From Olegusella massiliensis (GTDB taxonomy: Bacteria; Actinomycetota; Coriobacteriia; Coriobacteriales; Atopobiaceae): DNA of 64,000 nt. The stretch spans positions 1,187,404-1,251,403 of the forward strand of contig NZ_FLLS01000002.1 of assembly GCF_900078545.1 (NCBI RefSeq). Reading direction: 5' to 3'. A model generated the notes under the pieces. That model was not told the origin of the DNA. It did not search any database and saw only the letters and a program-made list of their open reading frames with translations. Numbering within the stretch: position 1 is the first letter of the stretch; each line of letters starts with the position of its first letter. Of the stretch, positions 44,201 to 53,410 are shown in pieces. The translations under genes were made by a program, and so were the position numbers.

Positions 44201-45775
44201 ATGATGGCGGGCGCCAAGCATTCAGCTCATACACATGGACGTCCGGATGTGGCTGCGCTGCGTGAAGCGATTGACGCGCGGCTTCGTGGTCGTGCTGCCT
44301 TCAGCGATACAAATTACAGCGATGAACCTATTATTTTTTCAGGCAAAAAACTTAAGAGTTACGTACCTGAACAGCTCGCTCAAGCGAGGGCATTGGCGCA
44401 TAGCCCTGCAATGTTGCATCACAGTGAGGCATATATTTTTTGGCGCCAGGCAAGGTTTTTGGCTGACTACGAAGATGATTTTGAGTACCACGGACATTTC
44501 TCTCGTTATTTCCCTACTTATCAGTTGATGAACAATGAGCAGCTGAGGGGTTATTTTTCTTGGCGTACCCAGTGGCGTCACGGTAAGGTTCAGGCTACGG
44601 AGACCTCCTTTGTATATCTTTGTGCTTATGAGTTGTTGCATTGTGTTGGTGTAGATGATGCGCTGCAAGCTCACAGTCAGATCGCCAAGCTGCGCAAAAA
44701 CTATGGCAAAGATCTCGCAGATTATCGTCTGTTCAAAAACTTGACTGAATGGATGGATGAGTTTGTCATCTATTGGGATTTGCCTCAGGAGCTACTGGAA
44801 GAGATGCCCTATCGCGAGGAAGATAGGGCTTTGCTGGCTTTATCTACAGTTGCAGATATCACCGATGAGCAGCTTTTTTCTGCTTTAACAGGACTTTCTT
44901 CGTATCGCATTGAAAGCTCTGCTTTGTATAAAGTACGGCCAGCAACAGTTCAGCGTGTTGTGTGTGAGGTTGTACGTAAAGTGAGCGCCCATCATGATCG
45001 CTCACTCAAGCGCAGTATGCTCGAGAGTTACTGTGGCGCATGTACGGAGCGAGATTTTCCCCTGCTTCGCAATGCAGTTTTTGCTGATCCAAGAGCGGGC
45101 GCAAATCGCAGTTATGAACTGAGCCTCTTTGATCAACTCTATTGCCGAGGTGGTTTTTGGTCACGCAAACGTTATTGGGGCATGACAAAGTCTCGCAAAA
45201 AATTTGGTGATTTACTTAAAACTATTGATGCTGCGATGCGGGAGCAGCTCAATTTTGAACCTTCCATTGAAAGTCCTCTTAAAACTCGCTACATCGTCCA
45301 AGTAGCTTGCGAGCTAACTCAGCGCTGTGTAGATGAGCAAAAAGCAGCAGAACGTCGAGCCGTGCATATTGATTTTTCCAAACTGGGAAGCATTCGCAGC
45401 GCTGCTGATACCACGCGAGATCGTTTGATTGTGGAAGAAGAACCTGAATTTGTTTTAGATGTTGCGGCAGTTACAACGGAAGTGTCCGAGCCAGATTTAA
45501 CAGAAGCGCATGAGCTAGATACCTTGGACGAGCCTGAGCCAGATACCACGGTTACGTTCAGTGACGAAGAGCGAGCACTGCTTAGTTGTCTGCTCGAGCA
45601 GAACTCTGTGGTTGCTTTTGAGCGCGAACATCAGCTGATGGTATCGCTGCTTATCGAGTCCATTAATGACAAGCTGATGGATGTCATTGATGATGTGGTC
45701 ATTGATGCGAGTTCTGTTGAACCTCAAATATATGAGGACTATCTTGACGATATAAGGGAGTTGCTCCATGCCTAA
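44201..45775 (+). CDS. TerB_N/TerB_C domain protein
   Basis: 524 residues. Residues about 75-230 match the TerB_N pattern (PTYQLMNNEQLRGYFSWRT, then a FVYLCAYELLH helix). The last about 75 residues (from FSDEERALLSCLL to the end) match TerB_C. A charged acidic linker separates the two. Such proteins lack the calcium-binding TerB core and are encoded next to an ATPase and a superfamily 2 helicase in predicted nucleic-acid-processing or defence loci. The gene overlaps the BrxD-like ATPase gene by eight bases, so the two are coupled. The ATG has GGAGG upstream. The biochemical function is unknown. Confidence 0.78.
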   Translation: MMAGAKHSAHTHGRPDVAALREAIDARLRGRAAFSDTNYSDEPIIFSGKKLKSYVPEQLAQARALAHSPAMLHHSEAYIFWRQARFLADYEDDFEYHGHFSRYFPTYQLMNNEQLRGYFSWRTQWRHGKVQATETSFVYLCAYELLHCVGVDDALQAHSQIAKLRKNYGKDLADYRLFKNLTEWMDEFVIYWDLPQELLEEMPYREEDRALLALSTVADITDEQLFSALTGLSSYRIESSALYKVRPATVQRVVCEVVRKVSAHHDRSLKRSMLESYCGACTERDFPLLRNAVFADPRAGANRSYELSLFDQLYCRGGFWSRKRYWGMTKSRKKFGDLLKTIDAAMREQLNFEPSIESPLKTRYIVQVACELTQRCVDEQKAAERRAVHIDFSKLGSIRSAADTTRDRLIVEEEPEFVLDVAAVTTEVSEPDLTEAHELDTLDEPEPDTTVTFSDEERALLSCLLEQNSVVAFEREHQLMVSLLIESINDKLMDVIDDVVIDASSVEPQIYEDYLDDIRELLHA

Positions 45776-47138
45776 GGTACCCAAGCGCATAGCAAATACG
45801 GTAATCAACTCGCTTAAGGGTGGCGTTGTACCACGCGTGGGCTTGCCTTATATCACCGTAGGGCGCACACACGAGATTGAAGCGCTGCTCCATGATGTGG
45901 AGGTTATCCGTGAAGGAGGAGCATCATTTCGTTTTGTAGTGGGTAAGTATGGTTCGGGCAAGTCATTTTTGCTGCAGACCATTCGAAATTATGCAATGGA
46001 TTTAGGCTTTGTCGTTATGGATGCCGATTTATCTCCTGAGCGTCGTTTGCAGGGTAGCCATGGGCAGGGACTTGCTACCTATAAGGAGCTTGTGCGCAAT
46101 ATGGCCACCAAGACTCGTCCTGAAGGTGGCGCGTTGACACTCATTCTTGACCGTTGGATTTCTGGTGTGCAAAGTACGGTAGTTGCCGAAGGTCTATCAG
46201 CGGATGATCCTCATTTTGCTGCTACCGTTGAGCAGCGTATTAGCGATGTCATAACACAGATGGGCGAAATGGTTCATGGTTTTGATTTTGCTCACCTGCT
46301 ACAGCTGTATTTTCGTTCGTACCTAGAGGGTAACGATGAGATAAAAGGCAAGGTTATTAAGTGGTTTCGCGGGGAATATGCCAACAAGACTGAAGCTCGT
46401 CGGGAGTTGGGCGTAGGCATAGTTGTGGGCGATGATGATTGGTATGAATACGTCAAGCTCTTTGCGTTTTTTCTCAAACAGGCGGGCTATGCAGGCTTAT
46501 TGATGCTGGTAGATGAGCTCGTCAATATTTATAAGGTGCCAAACTCGATTACCCGTCAGTATAACTACGAAAAAATTCTAACGATGTACAACGACACGTT
46601 GCAAGGCAAAGCACGCTACCTAGGCATCATTATGTGTGGTACACCCCAAGCTATTGAAGATCGTCGTCGGGGTGTGTATTCCTATGAGGCTTTACGTTCT
46701 CGTCTCTCTGAAGGTCGTTATGCTGCGGGTGTCTATAAGGATTTAATGGCGCCCGTCATCCAGTTACAGCCACTCACTCATGAAGAAATGCTGGTACTCA
46801 TAGAAAAGCTTCAAGATATCCATGCGCAACTCTATGCGTATGAGCCTCGTCTGACCGAGATGGATTTGGTGAGTTTTATCAAACAAGAATACGAGCGTGT
46901 AGGTGCAGATACGCATATCACGCCGCGCGAGGTAATTCGCGACTTCATTGAGCTGCTAGATATTTTGTATCAACATCCTGAGGCTCAAGTAGTCGAGGTG
47001 ATGGGGCAAACAATAGGGGGCGCAAGTGAAAGTGATGCTGAGGCTTTCACACAGACCGCAGGCATTGCTTTGCCCCGTAGTGGAGCTCCTGCCAGCTCTG
47101 GTAGATCGCAGCAAGATTTTTTTGAGTTCAAACTCTAA
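45768..47138 (+). CDS. BrxD-like (DUF2791) P-loop ATPase
   Basis: 456 residues. Walker A is VGKYGSGKSF (59-67) and Walker B is LLMLVDELVNIY (245-255). DRWISG, SITRQYNYEKI and the arginine-containing FEAL-type segment SYEALRSRLSE are in the order seen in the DUF2791/BrxD family of type 2 BREX systems. The short C-terminal tail after about residue 415 is Ser/Gly-rich. It overlaps the TerB-type gene by eight bases. Its usual partner helicase lies 3.5 kb downstream, separated by an ABC operon. PglX, PglY, PglZ and PglW are absent from the window. Confidence 0.8.
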   Translation: MPKVPKRIANTVINSLKGGVVPRVGLPYITVGRTHEIEALLHDVEVIREGGASFRFVVGKYGSGKSFLLQTIRNYAMDLGFVVMDADLSPERRLQGSHGQGLATYKELVRNMATKTRPEGGALTLILDRWISGVQSTVVAEGLSADDPHFAATVEQRISDVITQMGEMVHGFDFAHLLQLYFRSYLEGNDEIKGKVIKWFRGEYANKTEARRELGVGIVVGDDDWYEYVKLFAFFLKQAGYAGLLMLVDELVNIYKVPNSITRQYNYEKILTMYNDTLQGKARYLGIIMCGTPQAIEDRRRGVYSYEALRSRLSEGRYAAGVYKDLMAPVIQLQPLTHEEMLVLIEKLQDIHAQLYAYEPRLTEMDLVSFIKQEYERVGADTHITPREVIRDFIELLDILYQHPEAQVVEVMGQTIGGASESDAEAFTQTAGIALPRSGAPASSGRSQQDFFEFKL

Positions 47139-47151
47139 AAGGAATTGTGTA

Positions 47152-47179
47152 TTGACTTTAGAGAACCCAGCTGTATTAT
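47152..47179 (+). promoter_or_regulatory. Promoter of the second GntR-ABC operon
   Basis: TTGACT and TATTAT separated by 16 bases, starting only 13 bases after the BrxD-like stop codon. The operator begins immediately after the -10. Confidence 0.7.
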
Positions 47180-47202
47180 CTGTATTAAATGAACTAATAC
47201 AG
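47180..47202. promoter_or_regulatory. Palindromic GntR operator (CTGTAT-N11-ATACAG)
   Basis: Perfect 8-base arms CTGTATTA and TAATACAG are separated by 7 bases at the predicted transcription start. The core half-sites and 11-base spacing are the same as in the palindrome at 9891-9921. An extra CTGTATTA half-site lies directly upstream at 47171-47178. Confidence 0.75.
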
Positions 47203-47222
47203 TTATAGCTGAGGGGGTGCAA

Positions 47223-47609
47223 GTGATTCAAATTAGCTATAAAGACTCTCGGCCCATTCACGAACAAGTAGAAGATGGCATACGGCGTCTTGTTGTATCG
47301 GGGGCACTGGTGCCAGGTGAGCAGTTGCCCTCTGTGCGTGAGCTCGCATCTACTCTCGCTATCAATCCCAACACTATAGCTCGTGCGTATCGTGAGCTTG
47401 AAATGCAGGGTTATGTATGCAAGGTAGCAGGTAAGGGCTCGTTTGTAAGTGAAGGGGTGCCTGATGATCATCAGCGCATTACAGATTTACGTTCTGCTTT
47501 TGACGAAATTGCAACTGAGCTTCTGTATTTGGGCATTGATTTGGCCGCATTAAAAAAACAACTTGATAAGCTTGCTTGTGCTATGGGAGGGGAGGGACAA
47601 AATGACTAA
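47223..47609 (+). CDS. GntR-family regulator, YtrA subfamily (second copy)
   Basis: About 128 residues, with the winged helix (RPIHEQVEDGIRRL, SVRELASTLAINPNTIARAY) and a short C-terminal helix only. It resembles the regulator at 9953 in layout. The start is GTG with GAGGGG upstream. It leads an ABC operon and has its own promoter and operator. The last eight bases overlap the ATPase start. Confidence 0.92.
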   Translation: MIQISYKDSRPIHEQVEDGIRRLVVSGALVPGEQLPSVRELASTLAINPNTIARAYRELEMQGYVCKVAGKGSFVSEGVPDDHQRITDLRSAFDEIATELLYLGIDLAALKKQLDKLACAMGGEGQND

Positions 47610-48513
47610 TGAAATGCTCATTACCAAAGATGTTGTAAAGAATTTTGGCAATTTTCGTGCGCTTGACGGCGCTTCGATACGTGTGCCAAAGGGTAGTGTG
47701 TATGGCTTGGTAGGGCCTAATGGTGCGGGTAAATCCACCTTGCTCCGTCATGTCATGGGAATACTTCGTCCTGATGAAGGTGAAGTCTATATCGATGGCG
47801 AGCCCGTGTGGGAAAACGACGTGCTTATGCAGCGTGTTGCCTTTATTCCCGATGAGCTCTTTTACTTTCCCAATGCAACAATTCAGGATATGAGGCAGTA
47901 TTATCGCGGACTCTATCCCCGTTTTGATGATAAGCGCTTTGAGACTTTGCATGAGGTATTTAGCACGATTGATAACAAACGCCCTGTGCGTCGTTTGTCC
48001 AAAGGCATGCAAAAACAGTCGATTTTTTGGTTGTCTTTATGCTGCCATCCAGACTTTTTGGTACTCGATGAGCCCGTGGATGGCTTGGATCCTGTGATGC
48101 GTCATCAAATCTGGAGTCTGCTCATGAATGATGTGGTTGAGCAGAACACGACGATTTTGGTTTCCTCTCACAACTTGCGTGAACTCGAAGATGTGTGTGA
48201 TCACGTGGGCATTATGCACAAGGGCAAGATTTTGTTGCAGCGATCGCTTGAAGAGTTGGAGGGCAGTGTCTCCAAGGTACAAGTTGCCTTTGCAAATCAG
48301 CCGCCAGCATTTCCTGAAGATATCAAAATCATGCATCACGAAAAGCAGGGCCATGTCCACACCCTCATCGTGCGGGGCAAGCGTGAACAGCTTGTCGCAC
48401 ACTTAACGGCACTACATCCGCTTTTTTTGGATGTGTTACCGCTCACGCTAGAGGAGATATTTATTTATGAGATGGGAGGCGTGGACTATGGCATCAAAGA
48501 CATCCTTGCTTAG
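47602..48513 (+). CDS. ABC transporter ATP-binding protein (YtrB-like)
   Basis: 303 residues. Walker A is GPNGAGKST, the signature is LSKGMQ (replacing LSGGQ) and Walker B is FLVLDEPVDGLDP, followed by the SSHNLRELE switch region. The LSKGM type of signature is common in GntR-linked ABC exporters. The ATG overlaps the regulator stop, and the 3' end overlaps the permease start by 26 bases, so the three genes are tightly coupled. Confidence 0.92.
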   Translation: MTNEMLITKDVVKNFGNFRALDGASIRVPKGSVYGLVGPNGAGKSTLLRHVMGILRPDEGEVYIDGEPVWENDVLMQRVAFIPDELFYFPNATIQDMRQYYRGLYPRFDDKRFETLHEVFSTIDNKRPVRRLSKGMQKQSIFWLSLCCHPDFLVLDEPVDGLDPVMRHQIWSLLMNDVVEQNTTILVSSHNLRELEDVCDHVGIMHKGKILLQRSLEELEGSVSKVQVAFANQPPAFPEDIKIMHHEKQGHVHTLIVRGKREQLVAHLTALHPLFLDVLPLTLEEIFIYEMGGVDYGIKDILA

Positions 48514-50491
48514 CCGCACAGTTTTCCTAGGACATATCAAGCGCTTTGTTCCTTTGTGGGTACTCTATACCGCAGTACTCACCATTTGGTTGCCCATAGG
48601 CCTGTCCCTGCGTTTTCAGAGCATGGAACGCCCAACTGCCCAAGATTTGTATACAGTGGTTTACATGCACGTAAGCCTTAAATCATTTATTTTTGTGACG
48701 GCGGTCTTTGCAATTATCTGTGCCGTTTGCCTTTTTTCATATCTATACAAGAGTTCCTCGGCAAATATGATGCATGCCTTTCCACTCAGGCGTTCAACTC
48801 TTTTTGTATCAAGCTATCTTGCCGGTTTGTTTATGATGCTGGTGCCTACGGCTGTAGCGCTTTTACTCATGTTTTTGGTATGTGCTTCTCACCAGGTCAT
48901 TTGGGTAAGCCTGATGTCACAGCTGGCGATAGGTGTACTTTTTAGCTCTCTCTTTTTCTTCTCGTTGGCATCGCTGTGCTGTATGATTTCGGGCACTATA
49001 TTTGCAGCTGTTGCGTTTTATGGCATCTGCCAGCTCGCCTGGAGCGCAGTGTACACTCTGGTGATGATTTTTGTTGTCAACTTTACCTATGGTATGGAGC
49101 AGCTGTCCACGCCTGTATTGATGTTAGGTGGCAACGTAGGGTTTTTGTCTCCCTTGCCGTATTTATTAGGTCATGTCGGACTATTTGCTCAGAATATTGA
49201 CCTTGCAGGTGGCTTTAATCCCGCAACCATTGATGCCAGAACACATATCGAAGGTTTTCAGTGTCTCACGGCGTTTTTTATCGCAGGATTTGTTGTGACG
49301 GCACTTGCTTGGTGGATTTATAGCAAAAGGCGTATTGAAAGTGCGGGCGATATGGTTGCTTTTCCCGTGCTCAAATTGCCTGTACGCTGGTTAGCTGCCT
49401 TTATTGGCGGTATGGGAAGCACCTTTGTGATGGCTGCCCTAAGAGGTGTTGCGGGAAGCCGGCAGGATCTCGCCGTATTTGTTGGGTATTATGCACTTTT
49501 TGCCCTGATATGCTTCTTTGTGACGGAGATGATTCTCAATAAAACGGTGCGTATCTTTACTCGCAGTCGTGCAGTTGAAGCACTCGCAATGTGTGCTTTA
49601 AGTTCGGTTCTACTTGTGGGGCTTGGCTTGGACCTAGCTGGTTTTTCGACCACAATTCCGCAGACTAAAGATGTTTCAACCTTGAATCTTCAAGTTTGTG
49701 ACACCGATTATGCTGCTCAGGCAGGACTTGGCAAAGATTCCGATCGCCTGATGCAACAAACGATTGATTTACATCAAACTATTGTGGAAAATCGTGATGA
49801 GCTCAAAGCTGAGGTAGAGCGTATCAGTAGTTCTTCTGACGCTACTACGGTCTATGTACGCTTTGCGTATCAGCTCAAAGATGGTCGCAGCTTGACCCGA
49901 TCTTATGTCATTCCTGTCTCTGAGCAAACGGTCAGAGATCCCCATAGCGCTGCGTCAAAGTTGCTCAATATCTACAGCGATTCTGATTTCTTCCTTAATG
50001 CTTTGCTTGGATACGATCACGCTGATTTCGAGTGGGTTGGCGCAGTGTTTGCGCCGAGCTACAAAGGTGGGGACTCTGGTGAAAGTATCAGCATTGATAA
50101 AAATAAGGCAAAAGCTATGGGAGAAAAGCTCATATCTTATATTCAGAGTAAATCTTGGAAGGAATCTGCGCTGAGTCGTATAGGACTAACTGCGAGCAAT
50201 GCAAGCAACGAGTATCAATACTTCGGGTCGTTGGTAATGAATGGTCGCTATGAGGGAACCGGCAATACGACTCAACGTATCTTAGCTGATACCGGTCTTT
50301 TGAATTACACTGAGAACAGTCATGGTGCATGGGGCTATTCAGAAAATACCAAAACCAATGACGATGGCAGTTTCACCACTAACATCAGTCTCTCCCTAGA
50401 TGTTGATAACGATCTTATGGCAACGGATTTTGCCGAGGTGATAAAGGCCTCCGGCATCAAATTGGACGCTAACGATGCAGCTGCAAACTAA
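48488..50491 (+). CDS. ABC permease with large C-terminal extracytoplasmic domain
   Basis: 667 residues. The first about 385 residues contain roughly eight hydrophobic segments of an ABC-2-like permease. The last about 280 residues are hydrophilic (from DTDYAAQAGLGKDS) and resemble the DUF6449-type C-terminal domain of Firmicute permeases in GntR operons. The ATG at 48488 has GGGAGG upstream; the frame opens seven codons earlier. A strong terminator follows. The substrate is unknown; relatives are linked to cell-envelope antibiotic response. Confidence 0.82.
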   Translation: MASKTSLLSRTVFLGHIKRFVPLWVLYTAVLTIWLPIGLSLRFQSMERPTAQDLYTVVYMHVSLKSFIFVTAVFAIICAVCLFSYLYKSSSANMMHAFPLRRSTLFVSSYLAGLFMMLVPTAVALLLMFLVCASHQVIWVSLMSQLAIGVLFSSLFFFSLASLCCMISGTIFAAVAFYGICQLAWSAVYTLVMIFVVNFTYGMEQLSTPVLMLGGNVGFLSPLPYLLGHVGLFAQNIDLAGGFNPATIDARTHIEGFQCLTAFFIAGFVVTALAWWIYSKRRIESAGDMVAFPVLKLPVRWLAAFIGGMGSTFVMAALRGVAGSRQDLAVFVGYYALFALICFFVTEMILNKTVRIFTRSRAVEALAMCALSSVLLVGLGLDLAGFSTTIPQTKDVSTLNLQVCDTDYAAQAGLGKDSDRLMQQTIDLHQTIVENRDELKAEVERISSSSDATTVYVRFAYQLKDGRSLTRSYVIPVSEQTVRDPHSAASKLLNIYSDSDFFLNALLGYDHADFEWVGAVFAPSYKGGDSGESISIDKNKAKAMGEKLISYIQSKSWKESALSRIGLTASNASNEYQYFGSLVMNGRYEGTGNTTQRILADTGLLNYTENSHGAWGYSENTKTNDDGSFTTNISLSLDVDNDLMATDFAEVIKASGIKLDANDAAAN

Positions 50492-50513
50492 TACCAGTTT
50501 GCCCTCCTTTCTC

Positions 50514-50549
50514 AAGCGTCTTCCTTCTTCGAGGGAAGACGCTTTTTTT
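50514..50549 (+). terminator. Rho-independent terminator of the second ABC operon
   Basis: An 11-bp perfect stem (AAGCGTCTTCC / GGAAGACGCTT) with a 9-base loop and a T-run. It lies before the helicase gene, so the helicase needs its own promoter or readthrough. Confidence 0.93.
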
Positions 50550-50606
50550 GGCTGTGAAAAGTACATAAGCGAATATCTGTGCTAGCGTGAAGTGTTGGGA
50601 GGGAAT

Positions 50607-52964
50607 ATGGAAGCATTTGAGCGTTATGCGCCGTTTATTCAGGATTTTATTTACCGCAATGGGTGGCAATCGCTGCGTGGTGTGCAGGTGGCAGCCGCTC
50701 ATGCGATTTTTGATACAGACGATAATGTGTTGCTCTGTGCATCCACAGCTTCTGGAAAAACTGAGGCAGCATTTTTCCCCATACTGTCAGTTTTGGAGGA
50801 AGAACCCTCAAGTTCTGTTGGGGCGCTCTATGTGGGCCCACTCAAAGCACTGATAAATGATCAGTTTGGACGCTTAGAAGAGCTTTGTGAAGAAGAGGAG
50901 ATTCCTGTCTGGCGTTGGCATGGAGACGTTGCTGCTTCGCGCAAGGCAAAATTGATAAAGCATCCTTCAGGAATATTGCAAATTACGCCAGAATCCCTTG
51001 AGGCACTGTTGCTACATCGCCATTCAGCAATCCCCAAGCTCTTTGGTGATTTGCGTTTTATTGTGATTGATGAGGTACATTCTCTCATGCGGGGCGATCG
51101 AGGCGCTCAGACCCTTTGTGTGATTGAACGCTTGTCTCGTCTAGCAGGAGTGAGGCCACGTCGTATTGGACTGTCTGCGACAGTGGGCGATCCCGAGCGT
51201 ACGGGCGAATATCTTTCTGCGGGTACAGGGCACAAAACGCTCATTTTGCGCATTGATGATGCGTCTCAACGTTGGCGCTTGTCAATGGAACATTTTTATA
51301 TCAGTGATTATCAAGCTGTTGATGATGAGTTGGGGCGCGGACCTTATGCCCATCGGCATGAGGCAGAGGAAGCAGCTGTATTGACCGATATCGAGGTGGA
51401 TGGGGGCATGCCGGGCAAAGAAGGACTTGCTTGCATGCCTCAGCGCAGCTATGAGAGCAAAACCGATACTGCACCCCAGCTAGCAGATCCAGGCCTCGGA
51501 TATATTTTTGAACATAGTCGGGGTAAAAAGTGCTTGGTTTTTTCCAATTCGCGCGAGGACGCTGAGGCGGTGACTACGACGCTTCGCTCATATTGTGAGG
51601 CAAATGGTGAGCCAGATCGCTTTTTAATCCATCATGGCAATCTTTCTGCTCCCTTGCGAGAATCTGCCGAAGACGCAATGAAGGATGAAGAAACAGCCCT
51701 CACTACAATTACAACCTCAACTCTTGAGCTTGGTATTGATATTGGAAGACTTGAGCGCGCCTTTCAAATTGATGCACCTTTTACGGTATCAAGTTTTTTG
51801 CAGCGCATGGGGCGCACTGGTCGTCGTGGTACGCCGTCCGAGATGTGGTTTGTCATGCGAGAAGAACGACCTGAGCCTCGCTCCACCTTGGGTGAAACTA
51901 TTCCTTGGAAACTTTTGCAAGGCATTGCTTTGGTGCAGCTCTACCTTGAAGAGCGCTGGGTTGAGCCTCCCCGCCTGGATCGCCTACCCTTTAGCCTGCT
52001 TTATCATCAGACAATGGCAACACTGGCATCACAAGGTGAAATGAGTCCCGCAGAACTTGCAGTGCGCGTGTTGACTCTCACGCCATTCCAACGGGTTACA
52101 ACAGATGACTATCGAGTACTGCTTCACCATTTAATTGCGAGCGAACAAATTCAACAGACTGATGAAGGCGGCCTTATTGTGGGCTTAGCGGGGGAGCGTG
52201 TGGTTAACAATTTCCGCTTCTACGGAGTCTTTGTTGAGAGTGAGGAGTACACCGTTCGTAGTGAAAGCCAAGAGCTTGGTACTACGGTGATGCCGCCACC
52301 TGTAGGTGACAAAATTGCTATTGCGGGTGCCACGTGGCTGGTAGAAGAAGTGGACCATAAACGGCATATGGTTTACTGCACCCAGGTAAAAGGTCAGGTG
52401 CCTGCCTATTTTGGCGAGTGCCCCGGTGACATTCATACCCATGTACTCGAGCGCATGGCACACATTCTCGCAGAAGATGTGATATATCCCTATCTCATGG
52501 ATAATGCCCGTGCTCGTCTTGCTCAGGCGCGTCGTACGGCAGGCGCTTCAGGCATGCTTAACGCGCCGCTTATCAATATTGGTGGAGATAGTTGGGCGCT
52601 GTTTCCTTGGCTGGGCAGTTATGCTTTTTTGGCTCTAGAGCGTTTCCTTAAGCTGCGCTGTTCAGAGGAGTTAGGACTTAAGGGCCTGGACTCAAGTCGT
52701 CCATACTTTTTGCAATTCCGTATGAAAGCAGATGCGCAAACCTTTGTTGATGTGCTTGCCAAGCAAGCCCTGCGTCCGCTTGATCCCCTTGAGTTGCTCT
52801 ATCCTAAAGAAGTGCCTGTTTTTGAAAAGTATGATGCCTATGTGCCAGTTGAGCTGGTGCGCAAAGGTTTTGCCTATGGGATTTTAGATACAGAGGGCAT
52901 GTTGCATCGTGTGCGTCAATGGTGTGGCTTGCCTGAGTTGCCTGAGTTAGGAGGTCAAGCGTAA
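50607..52964 (+). CDS. Lhr/BrxHI-like superfamily 2 DEAD/DEAH helicase
   Basis: 785 residues. Motif I is STASGKTEA (47-55), motif II is DEVH in IVIDEVHSLMRG, followed by GLSATVGDP (III), TSTLELGIDIG (V) and QRMGRTGRRG (VI). The about 350-residue region after the helicase core matches the Lhr-type C-terminal domains of BrxHI, the helicase that accompanies BrxD in type 2 BREX. GGGAGGG supports the ATG at 50607; the frame opens at 50592. It is on the same strand as the TerB and BrxD-like genes but separated from them by the ABC operon. Confidence 0.87.
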   Translation: MEAFERYAPFIQDFIYRNGWQSLRGVQVAAAHAIFDTDDNVLLCASTASGKTEAAFFPILSVLEEEPSSSVGALYVGPLKALINDQFGRLEELCEEEEIPVWRWHGDVAASRKAKLIKHPSGILQITPESLEALLLHRHSAIPKLFGDLRFIVIDEVHSLMRGDRGAQTLCVIERLSRLAGVRPRRIGLSATVGDPERTGEYLSAGTGHKTLILRIDDASQRWRLSMEHFYISDYQAVDDELGRGPYAHRHEAEEAAVLTDIEVDGGMPGKEGLACMPQRSYESKTDTAPQLADPGLGYIFEHSRGKKCLVFSNSREDAEAVTTTLRSYCEANGEPDRFLIHHGNLSAPLRESAEDAMKDEETALTTITTSTLELGIDIGRLERAFQIDAPFTVSSFLQRMGRTGRRGTPSEMWFVMREERPEPRSTLGETIPWKLLQGIALVQLYLEERWVEPPRLDRLPFSLLYHQTMATLASQGEMSPAELAVRVLTLTPFQRVTTDDYRVLLHHLIASEQIQQTDEGGLIVGLAGERVVNNFRFYGVFVESEEYTVRSESQELGTTVMPPPVGDKIAIAGATWLVEEVDHKRHMVYCTQVKGQVPAYFGECPGDIHTHVLERMAHILAEDVIYPYLMDNARARLAQARRTAGASGMLNAPLINIGGDSWALFPWLGSYAFLALERFLKLRCSEELGLKGLDSSRPYFLQFRMKADAQTFVDVLAKQALRPLDPLELLYPKEVPVFEKYDAYVPVELVRKGFAYGILDTEGMLHRVRQWCGLPELPELGGQA

Positions 52965-53032: not shown

Positions 53033-53410
53033 ATGAAACCAATGCTTTTGGCTGCAATCATTGCAATTACACTCGCACTTATTTTGTATACCATTGGCGT
53101 CTTTTCCGAACGTCACGCAAAAGTACTTAAGCCAATGCATCTTACACTGTTTTGGTTGGGATTGATTTGTGATAGTACAGGTACAGCCTTGATGAGCAAG
53201 ATTGCCCAAGCAGGTGCTACAGGAATTGGATTACATGCAGTTACCGGTGCTCTAGCGATTGTTCTTATGGCATTTCATGCAATTTGGGCAACGGTGACGC
53301 TTGTGAGTCACAATGAAAAACGTGCTCGTACCTTCCATCGCCTCAGTCTTTTTGTCTGGTTGGTATGGCTTGTGCCTTATGTTATAGGTGTGTATATGGG
53401 TATGCATTAG
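53033..53410 (+). CDS. HsmA-like (TIGR03987) small membrane protein
   Basis: 125 residues with four hydrophobic segments. The GLICDSTGTALM and GLHAVTGALAIVLMAFHAIWA segments fit the TIGR03987/HsmA family of unknown function; conserved histidines within the membrane could bind heme or metal. GCAGGAG precedes the ATG. It follows the helicase after 68 bases; no functional link is evident. Confidence 0.75.
   Translation: MKPMLLAAIIAITLALILYTIGVFSERHAKVLKPMHLTLFWLGLICDSTGTALMSKIAQAGATGIGLHAVTGALAIVLMAFHAIWATVTLVSHNEKRARTFHRLSLFVWLVWLVPYVIGVYMGMH

Follow-up and report, generated by a model that had tools for sequence, protein, structure and literature searches.

Introduction

Shango is a three-gene system composed of a TerB-like protein, an ATPase and a helicase (PMC10250203). 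On plates, it gives a modest protection of 10- to 100-fold against many of the phages tried, though not against every one, according to the same source, which cites as its reference 22 an earlier report of Shango, published in 2022, from E. coli. Its ATPase and helicase have counterparts in the BrxD-BrxHI dyad of type 2 bacteriophage exclusion (BREX), in which BrxD has been assigned to the ORC/Cdc6 AAA+ ATPases and may load BrxHI (PMC12839542), and the Shango helicase SngC falls into one clade with BrxHI, DruE and DpdJ (PMC12278908). Here, a 64,000-nucleotide stretch of the Olegusella massiliensis genome (contig NZ_FLLS01000002.1, positions 1,187,404 to 1,251,403; hereafter the window) was analyzed, in which sngA, sngB and sngC homologues are present and a unit encoding a GntR regulator, an ATP-binding cassette (ABC) ATPase and a probable permease lies between sngB and sngC.

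Results

An apparently intact Shango system in O. massiliensis

The three outer genes are all on the plus strand. sngA (44201-45775) encodes a 524-aa protein with TerB_N (7.7e-24) and TerB_C (5.4e-19) domains in Pfam; sngB (45768-47138), whose reading frame shares 8 bp with that of sngA, encodes a 456-aa AAA+ ATPase of the Pfam family BrxC_BrxD (6.6e-168); and sngC (50607-52964), about 3.5 kb beyond sngB with three genes and a terminator-like hairpin intervening, encodes an Lhr/BrxHI-like DEAD/DEAH helicase (DEAD 4.9e-27, Helicase_C 1.6e-16) of 785 aa when counted from its ATG, or of 790 aa from an in-frame GTG at 50592. The open reading frames (ORFs), the eight-base overlap and the same-strand helicase start had been listed in an earlier note made from the letters of the window, and an ORF check agrees with them; its domain calls for these proteins and for the GntR and ABC proteins are likewise matched in Pfam.

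The PADLOC profiles for SngA, SngB and SngC were covered by the window proteins from 53 to 527 of 528 positions (E 1.6e-70), 5 to 419 of 439 (E 1.4e-184) and 4 to 715 of 720 (E 2.4e-274), respectively, so that each protein is classed as the corresponding Shango component. SngB and SngC also matched the PADLOC models of BrxD (1.4e-51) and BrxHI (2.4e-123), but every BREX model was outscored (612 vs 174 bits and 911 vs 411 bits). Each Shango model is thus matched along most of its length and beats the BREX models. We conclude with high confidence that positions 44201-47138 and 50607-52964 hold an apparently intact Shango system and that the GntR-ABC-permease unit in the sngB-sngC gap is a self-contained passenger. 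The locus is a known system that is probably functional, with a passenger operon particular to the genus, and it would be expected to act against phages in O. massiliensis. The earlier note had proposed that the three outer genes form one anti-phage system akin to the BrxD-BrxHI pair, which the Shango matches support. Its remark that it knew of no named defense system with exactly this composition is superseded by PADLOC and by the description in PMC10250203; an unnamed system is ruled out by the PADLOC matches of all three outer genes to Shango.

The matches to Pfam BrxC_BrxD and to PADLOC BrxD and BrxHI might instead point to a reduced type 2 BREX, in which BrxD and BrxHI were left after loss of PglW, PglX and PglZ and a TerB protein was recruited. 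The Shango models are, however, ahead by hundreds of bits, and SngB scored 172.7 bits against NCBIfam BrxD, for which the curated cut-off is 350. The ATPase and helicase are relatives of the BrxD-BrxHI pair, as proposed earlier. In line with the lack of PglX/PglZ given in the earlier note, no match to PglZ (PF08665) or type 2 PglX (NF033451) was found at E <= 0.001 in the genome, which is 98.7% complete (PglW was not searched). Moreover, of 65 named loci that could be assessed, from Coriobacteriales and other phyla, 57 carry the same combination of TerB protein, ATPase and helicase, which argues that Shango is a system of its own. A BREX remnant is ruled out on these scores and missing genes, and we give it a close to negligible probability.

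A conserved ATPase and helicase and a variable TerB protein

The Walker residues of SngB (G59, G64, K65, S66, D249 and E250) are invariant in 26 sequences, as are the helicase residues of SngC (G50-K51-T52, D155-E156, H158, S190-A191-T192 and Q399-R400...R406) in 23 sequences. Mean column identity is 62% for SngB (n = 26), 68% for SngC (n = 23) and 32% for SngA (n = 24), which is the most variable component. The best sequence matches of SngC among solved structures are YprA and two ATP-dependent DNA helicases (5v9x and 7lhl), which we take to be Lhr. For SngA, the predicted model has a mean predicted local distance difference test score (pLDDT) of 82.7, and no match in the PDB was found by sequence or, at E <= 0.001, by Foldseek; with VIA-align, its C-terminus matched a winged helix (5yi0_A, Z 6.8, root-mean-square deviation 4.1, 72 aligned residues), a match under the trust level of the tool.

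From these features and by analogy with BREX we infer a loader-helicase mechanism, which we favor. SngB, as an AAA+ ATPase of the BrxD family and ORC/Cdc6 type, would assemble on SngC and load or activate it, and SngC, as an Lhr/BrxHI-like superfamily 2 helicase, would be put to work on foreign or abnormal nucleic acid. The fast-evolving SngA, with its TerB_N and TerB_C domains and winged-helix-like end, may serve as sensor, adaptor or effector.

Gene order and spacing in the order Coriobacteriales

Among 395 genomes of the order, an SngB match is present in 190 and an SngC match in 191. Match positions were obtained for 149 genomes each, and spacing was counted in the 114 genomes common to both, where sngB and sngC are on one contig in 97 and on different contigs in 17. 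Spacing in the 97 genomes, measured between profile-match ends and thus including some 100 bp of sngB, is <=400 bp in 56, 400-1000 bp in 12 and >1 kb in 28 from nine genera, with the genes on opposite strands in one. SngB was also found at 65 of the best 80 named SngC loci, with a spacing of <=400 bp in 50, 400-1000 bp in 10, >1 kb in 3 and another arrangement in 2; SngA is present in 57 of these 65, and the remaining eight have <2 kb of sequence on that side. The three genes are therefore usually neighbors, as expected from their earlier grouping into one system. The sngB-sngC split in the window is real and looks derived. How often sngC is separated from sngA and sngB in this order is a mildly new point.

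Twelve of the 15 SngC loci lacking SngB have <3 kb of upstream sequence. The other three (L147, L154 and L166), with 70% identical SngC homologues, show no SngB across 10 kb upstream, which indicates that SngC can stand alone. Other arrangements were also seen: in L100, some 6.4 kb separate sngC from sngB and sngA, which are encoded on the other strand; sngA is inverted and downstream of sngC in L107 and L122, and the gene order is A-C-B in L121.

The GntR-ABC-permease unit is most likely a passenger

The unit comprises, all on the plus strand, a gene for a 130-aa GntR-family regulator (47217-47609; Pfam GntR 2.3e-15), an ABC ATPase gene (47602-48513, within the frame 47563-48513; ABC_tran 3.7e-25) and a 674-aa open frame (48467-50491). 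The last has no family match in Pfam, NCBIfam or PADLOC and is taken as a probable ABC permease gene, with homologues that occupy the corresponding position of the unit elsewhere (24-36% identity outside the Atopobium genome described below). A promoter-like site, TTGACT-16-TATTAT (47152-47179), precedes the unit. It is followed by a perfect palindrome 5' of gntR, GTATTA-N7-TAATAC (47182-47200), a probable GntR operator whose motif form recurs in the G001, G002 and G039 loci. The palindrome is the sole match in the window allowing <=1 mismatch (0.07 expected); a pattern with a spacer of 8 gave four weak matches (1.33 expected) and was rejected in favor of a spacer of 7. A terminator-like hairpin with a 14-bp stem and a T run (50514-50544, plus strand) closes the unit before sngC. 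The promoter, operator and terminator that the earlier note had assigned to the unit thus exist as sites, but the region as a whole shows no excess over shuffled sequences (9 promoter-like sites vs 13.5 expected, 8 terminator-like sites vs 9.6 expected).

An ABC homologue (E <= 1e-70) was found in 9 of 60 genomes, including that of the window, with the best 39 of many ABC candidates scored in most genomes. Three of the nine belong to the genus. In the six others, SngB is absent (G039, G055 and G017), on another contig (G012 and G032) or about 400 kb away (G024); the GntR gene accompanies the ABC gene in five of these six loci and the permease gene in five, the missing ones being at loci cut short. 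Because the unit is unlinked to Shango in six other genomes, as far as their contigs show, and three of these are without SngB, it is an operon of its own and most likely a passenger at the Shango locus. The unrelated genes in the sngB-sngC gap of other genomes also count for this reading. Of the earlier suggestion that the ABC operon was inserted into the system or had joined it, the first part is consistent with these data, while joining finds no support. A transposon insertion was considered and rejected: the direct repeats in 47100-50700 are two-copy and 14-19 nt long, and none flanks the unit on both sides in the manner of a target duplication.

The unit could alternatively be a working fourth module of Shango, in which envelope stress or a phage-triggered signal would relieve GntR and adjust the unit, along with read-through into sngC, in step with defense. 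It does occupy the same place in three genus members, all genes share a strand, the scan showed no terminator-like site from sngB to gntR, and there are signs of purifying selection. Yet it was not found at E <= 1e-60 in two other genus members (assemblies 82% and 88% complete), one of them with contiguous sngB and sngC, is closed by a hairpin before sngC, and has its operator form shared with the Shango-less G039, besides being unlinked to Shango elsewhere and replaced by unrelated genes in the gaps of other genera. We consider a fourth module very unlikely and retain the passenger reading.

The sngB-sngC junction within the genus

Four further genomes of the genus were compared. In G001, Atopobium sp. 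oral taxon 810 F0209 (first 8,000 contig bases identical to NZ_KE952945.1), the unit is as in the window and the contig end falls in the terminator; sngC opens another contig and is followed by HsmA, Lpd and LplA genes, again as in the window. G003 has no insert, with 82 bp from sngB to sngC. The gap of G004 holds a 420-aa gene, and that of G002 a relative of this gene, a GntR-ABC-permease unit and more. The unit is thus present in the window, G001 and G002, and its ABC gene was not found at E <= 1e-60 in G003 and G004, whose assemblies are 82% and 88% complete. With start codons picked by script, sngA and sngB overlap by 4 bp in G003 and by 8 bp in the other four genomes, that of the window included. 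PpaC lies upstream in G002, G003 and G004; of these three, only G003 has no EngB there. Because sequence identity pairs the window with G001 and G002 with G004, either a single gain followed by loss in G004 or two separate gains would account for the unit; the permeases of the window and G002 are only 33% identical.

The 420-aa genes follow sngB on the minus strand of their loci (G002, L032:8652-9914; G004, L033:8556-9818). The G002 protein matches nothing in Pfam or PADLOC at E <= 1e-5; it may be of AbiEi type, ending in a nuclease-like part. In the same gaps lies an imperfect palindrome, about 230 bp long and with arms of 35-36 bp, similar to a miniature inverted-repeat transposable element (MITE), at 8402-8641 of L032 and 8264-8543 of L033, with a second, diverged copy in G004 about 5 kb downstream of sngC (L033, about 405-634). 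It has no match in the window. This MITE-like element may in part be behind the gene turnover at the sngB-sngC junction. On the other side of the window locus, an HsmA-family gene (53033-53410; TIGR03987, 3.7e-51) adjoins the 3' end of sngC, a position kept in G001.

Cargo in other gaps

By a simple codon score, 32 of 33 sngB-sngC gaps contained 99 predicted ORFs, although the 420-aa genes of G002 and G004 were missed by this method. The cargo scan covered 21 proteins (20 with Pfam, 10 with PADLOC), a sample that does not establish for the whole set that the cargo is mostly not defense. At E <= 1e-5, seven of the 20 proteins matched metabolic or transport families (pyruvate formate-lyase, FtsX exporters, GCS2, iron hydrogenase, an ABC transporter and an amino-acid permease), six matched other families, including LytTR, an RpiR-type helix-turn-helix, a PIN domain and AAA_14/DUF4143, and seven matched none. 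Among the 10 proteins compared with PADLOC, one matched a candidate defense family. An AAA_14/DUF4143 ATPase lies between sngB and sngC in G183 (L073:2476-3684, minus strand; PADLOC candidate PDC-S01, 7.5e-147).

Selection and history

Between the window and G001, the ratio of nonsynonymous to synonymous substitution rates (dN/dS) is 0.16 for SngA, 0.08 for SngB and 0.08 for SngC, and 0.16, 0.04 and 0.18 for the GntR, ABC and permease genes of the unit, which points to maintenance of all six genes. An SngC tree was built from 77 of the 80 named loci plus the window (78 proteins), with labels assigned by hand from titles. The 30 proteins labeled Coriobacteriales occupy two separate positions in it (Fitch count of two changes), with seven Collinsella loci apart from the others, a pattern that fits horizontal movement.

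Presence in about half of the 395 genomes, including most listed members of some genera, would also suit a housekeeping module for nucleic-acid maintenance rather than defense. About half of the genomes are nevertheless without it (SngB is missing in 205 of 395), its occurrence is patchy within genera and families, the Coriobacteriales labels are split in the SngC tree, and other Shango copies have published phage protection (PMC10250203). A housekeeping role is accordingly judged highly improbable.

Discussion

Several observations weigh against an intact Shango system with a self-contained passenger. The predicted SngB model is of middling quality (pLDDT 73.2), SngB has no sequence match in the PDB at E <= 0.1, and its Foldseek matches are weak (seven with E <= 0.001, template-modeling scores by query 0.22-0.39); the best are BrxC and RdrA, but a mitochondrial ribosomal protein and ClpC are also included, so that the model would suggest a P-loop/AAA+ fold at most. 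None of SngA, SngB and SngC showed a recognizable nuclease domain or any other domain for killing. sngC lies behind the terminator-like hairpin with no promoter-like site between them in the scan, and its expression here is a prediction. Finally, the ABC unit, under purifying selection and present in three of five genus members, would fit a useful partner as well.

It is also conceivable, though unlikely, that Coriobacteriales have repeatedly brought the Shango helicase under control of its own, the sngB-sngC junction being a recurrent landing site for other genes, so that helicase supply is set apart from the sensor and ATPase, and with a tie, in this genus, to a GntR-controlled ABC exporter answering envelope stress. 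If the separation truly has regulatory meaning, it would bear on the working of Shango, the mechanism category of which is 'Unknown' in a 2026 review (PMC12926258). Shango is entered with a TerB domain in PMC10952713 and is not mentioned in the available portions of PMC12458937 and PMC12839542. A literature search on Shango gave no title naming Shango or a mechanism for it among the matches listed; combined with Coriobacteriales names, it gave no Shango paper among the matches listed, which is not proof of absence.

In summary, a presumed unnamed system gives way to a named one, which is common in this order and in which the TerB component is far more variable than the ATPase and helicase. Since sngC tolerates separation, defense finders relying on tight spacing could miss split copies. 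Compared with known systems, the insert alone resembles PmtR/PmtA-type GntR-ABC export operons, in which a small GntR regulator is likewise followed by an ABC ATPase, but its matches are partial, at 63.4 bits for PmtR (cut-off 200) and 137.5 bits for PmtA (cut-off 350). Type 2 BREX shares a homologous ATPase and helicase with the locus, and the loader-helicase idea is taken from its BrxD-BrxHI dyad (PMC12839542), but the locus differs in its TerB protein, in an ATPase below the BrxD cut-off and in a genome without PglZ or type 2 PglX matches. With Shango, the locus shares three components in A-B-C order, near full-length matches to the three PADLOC models and the set of TerB-like protein, ATPase and DEAD/DEAH helicase described in PMC10250203, and it differs in that three transporter genes part sngB from sngC, whereas contiguity is the commoner state.

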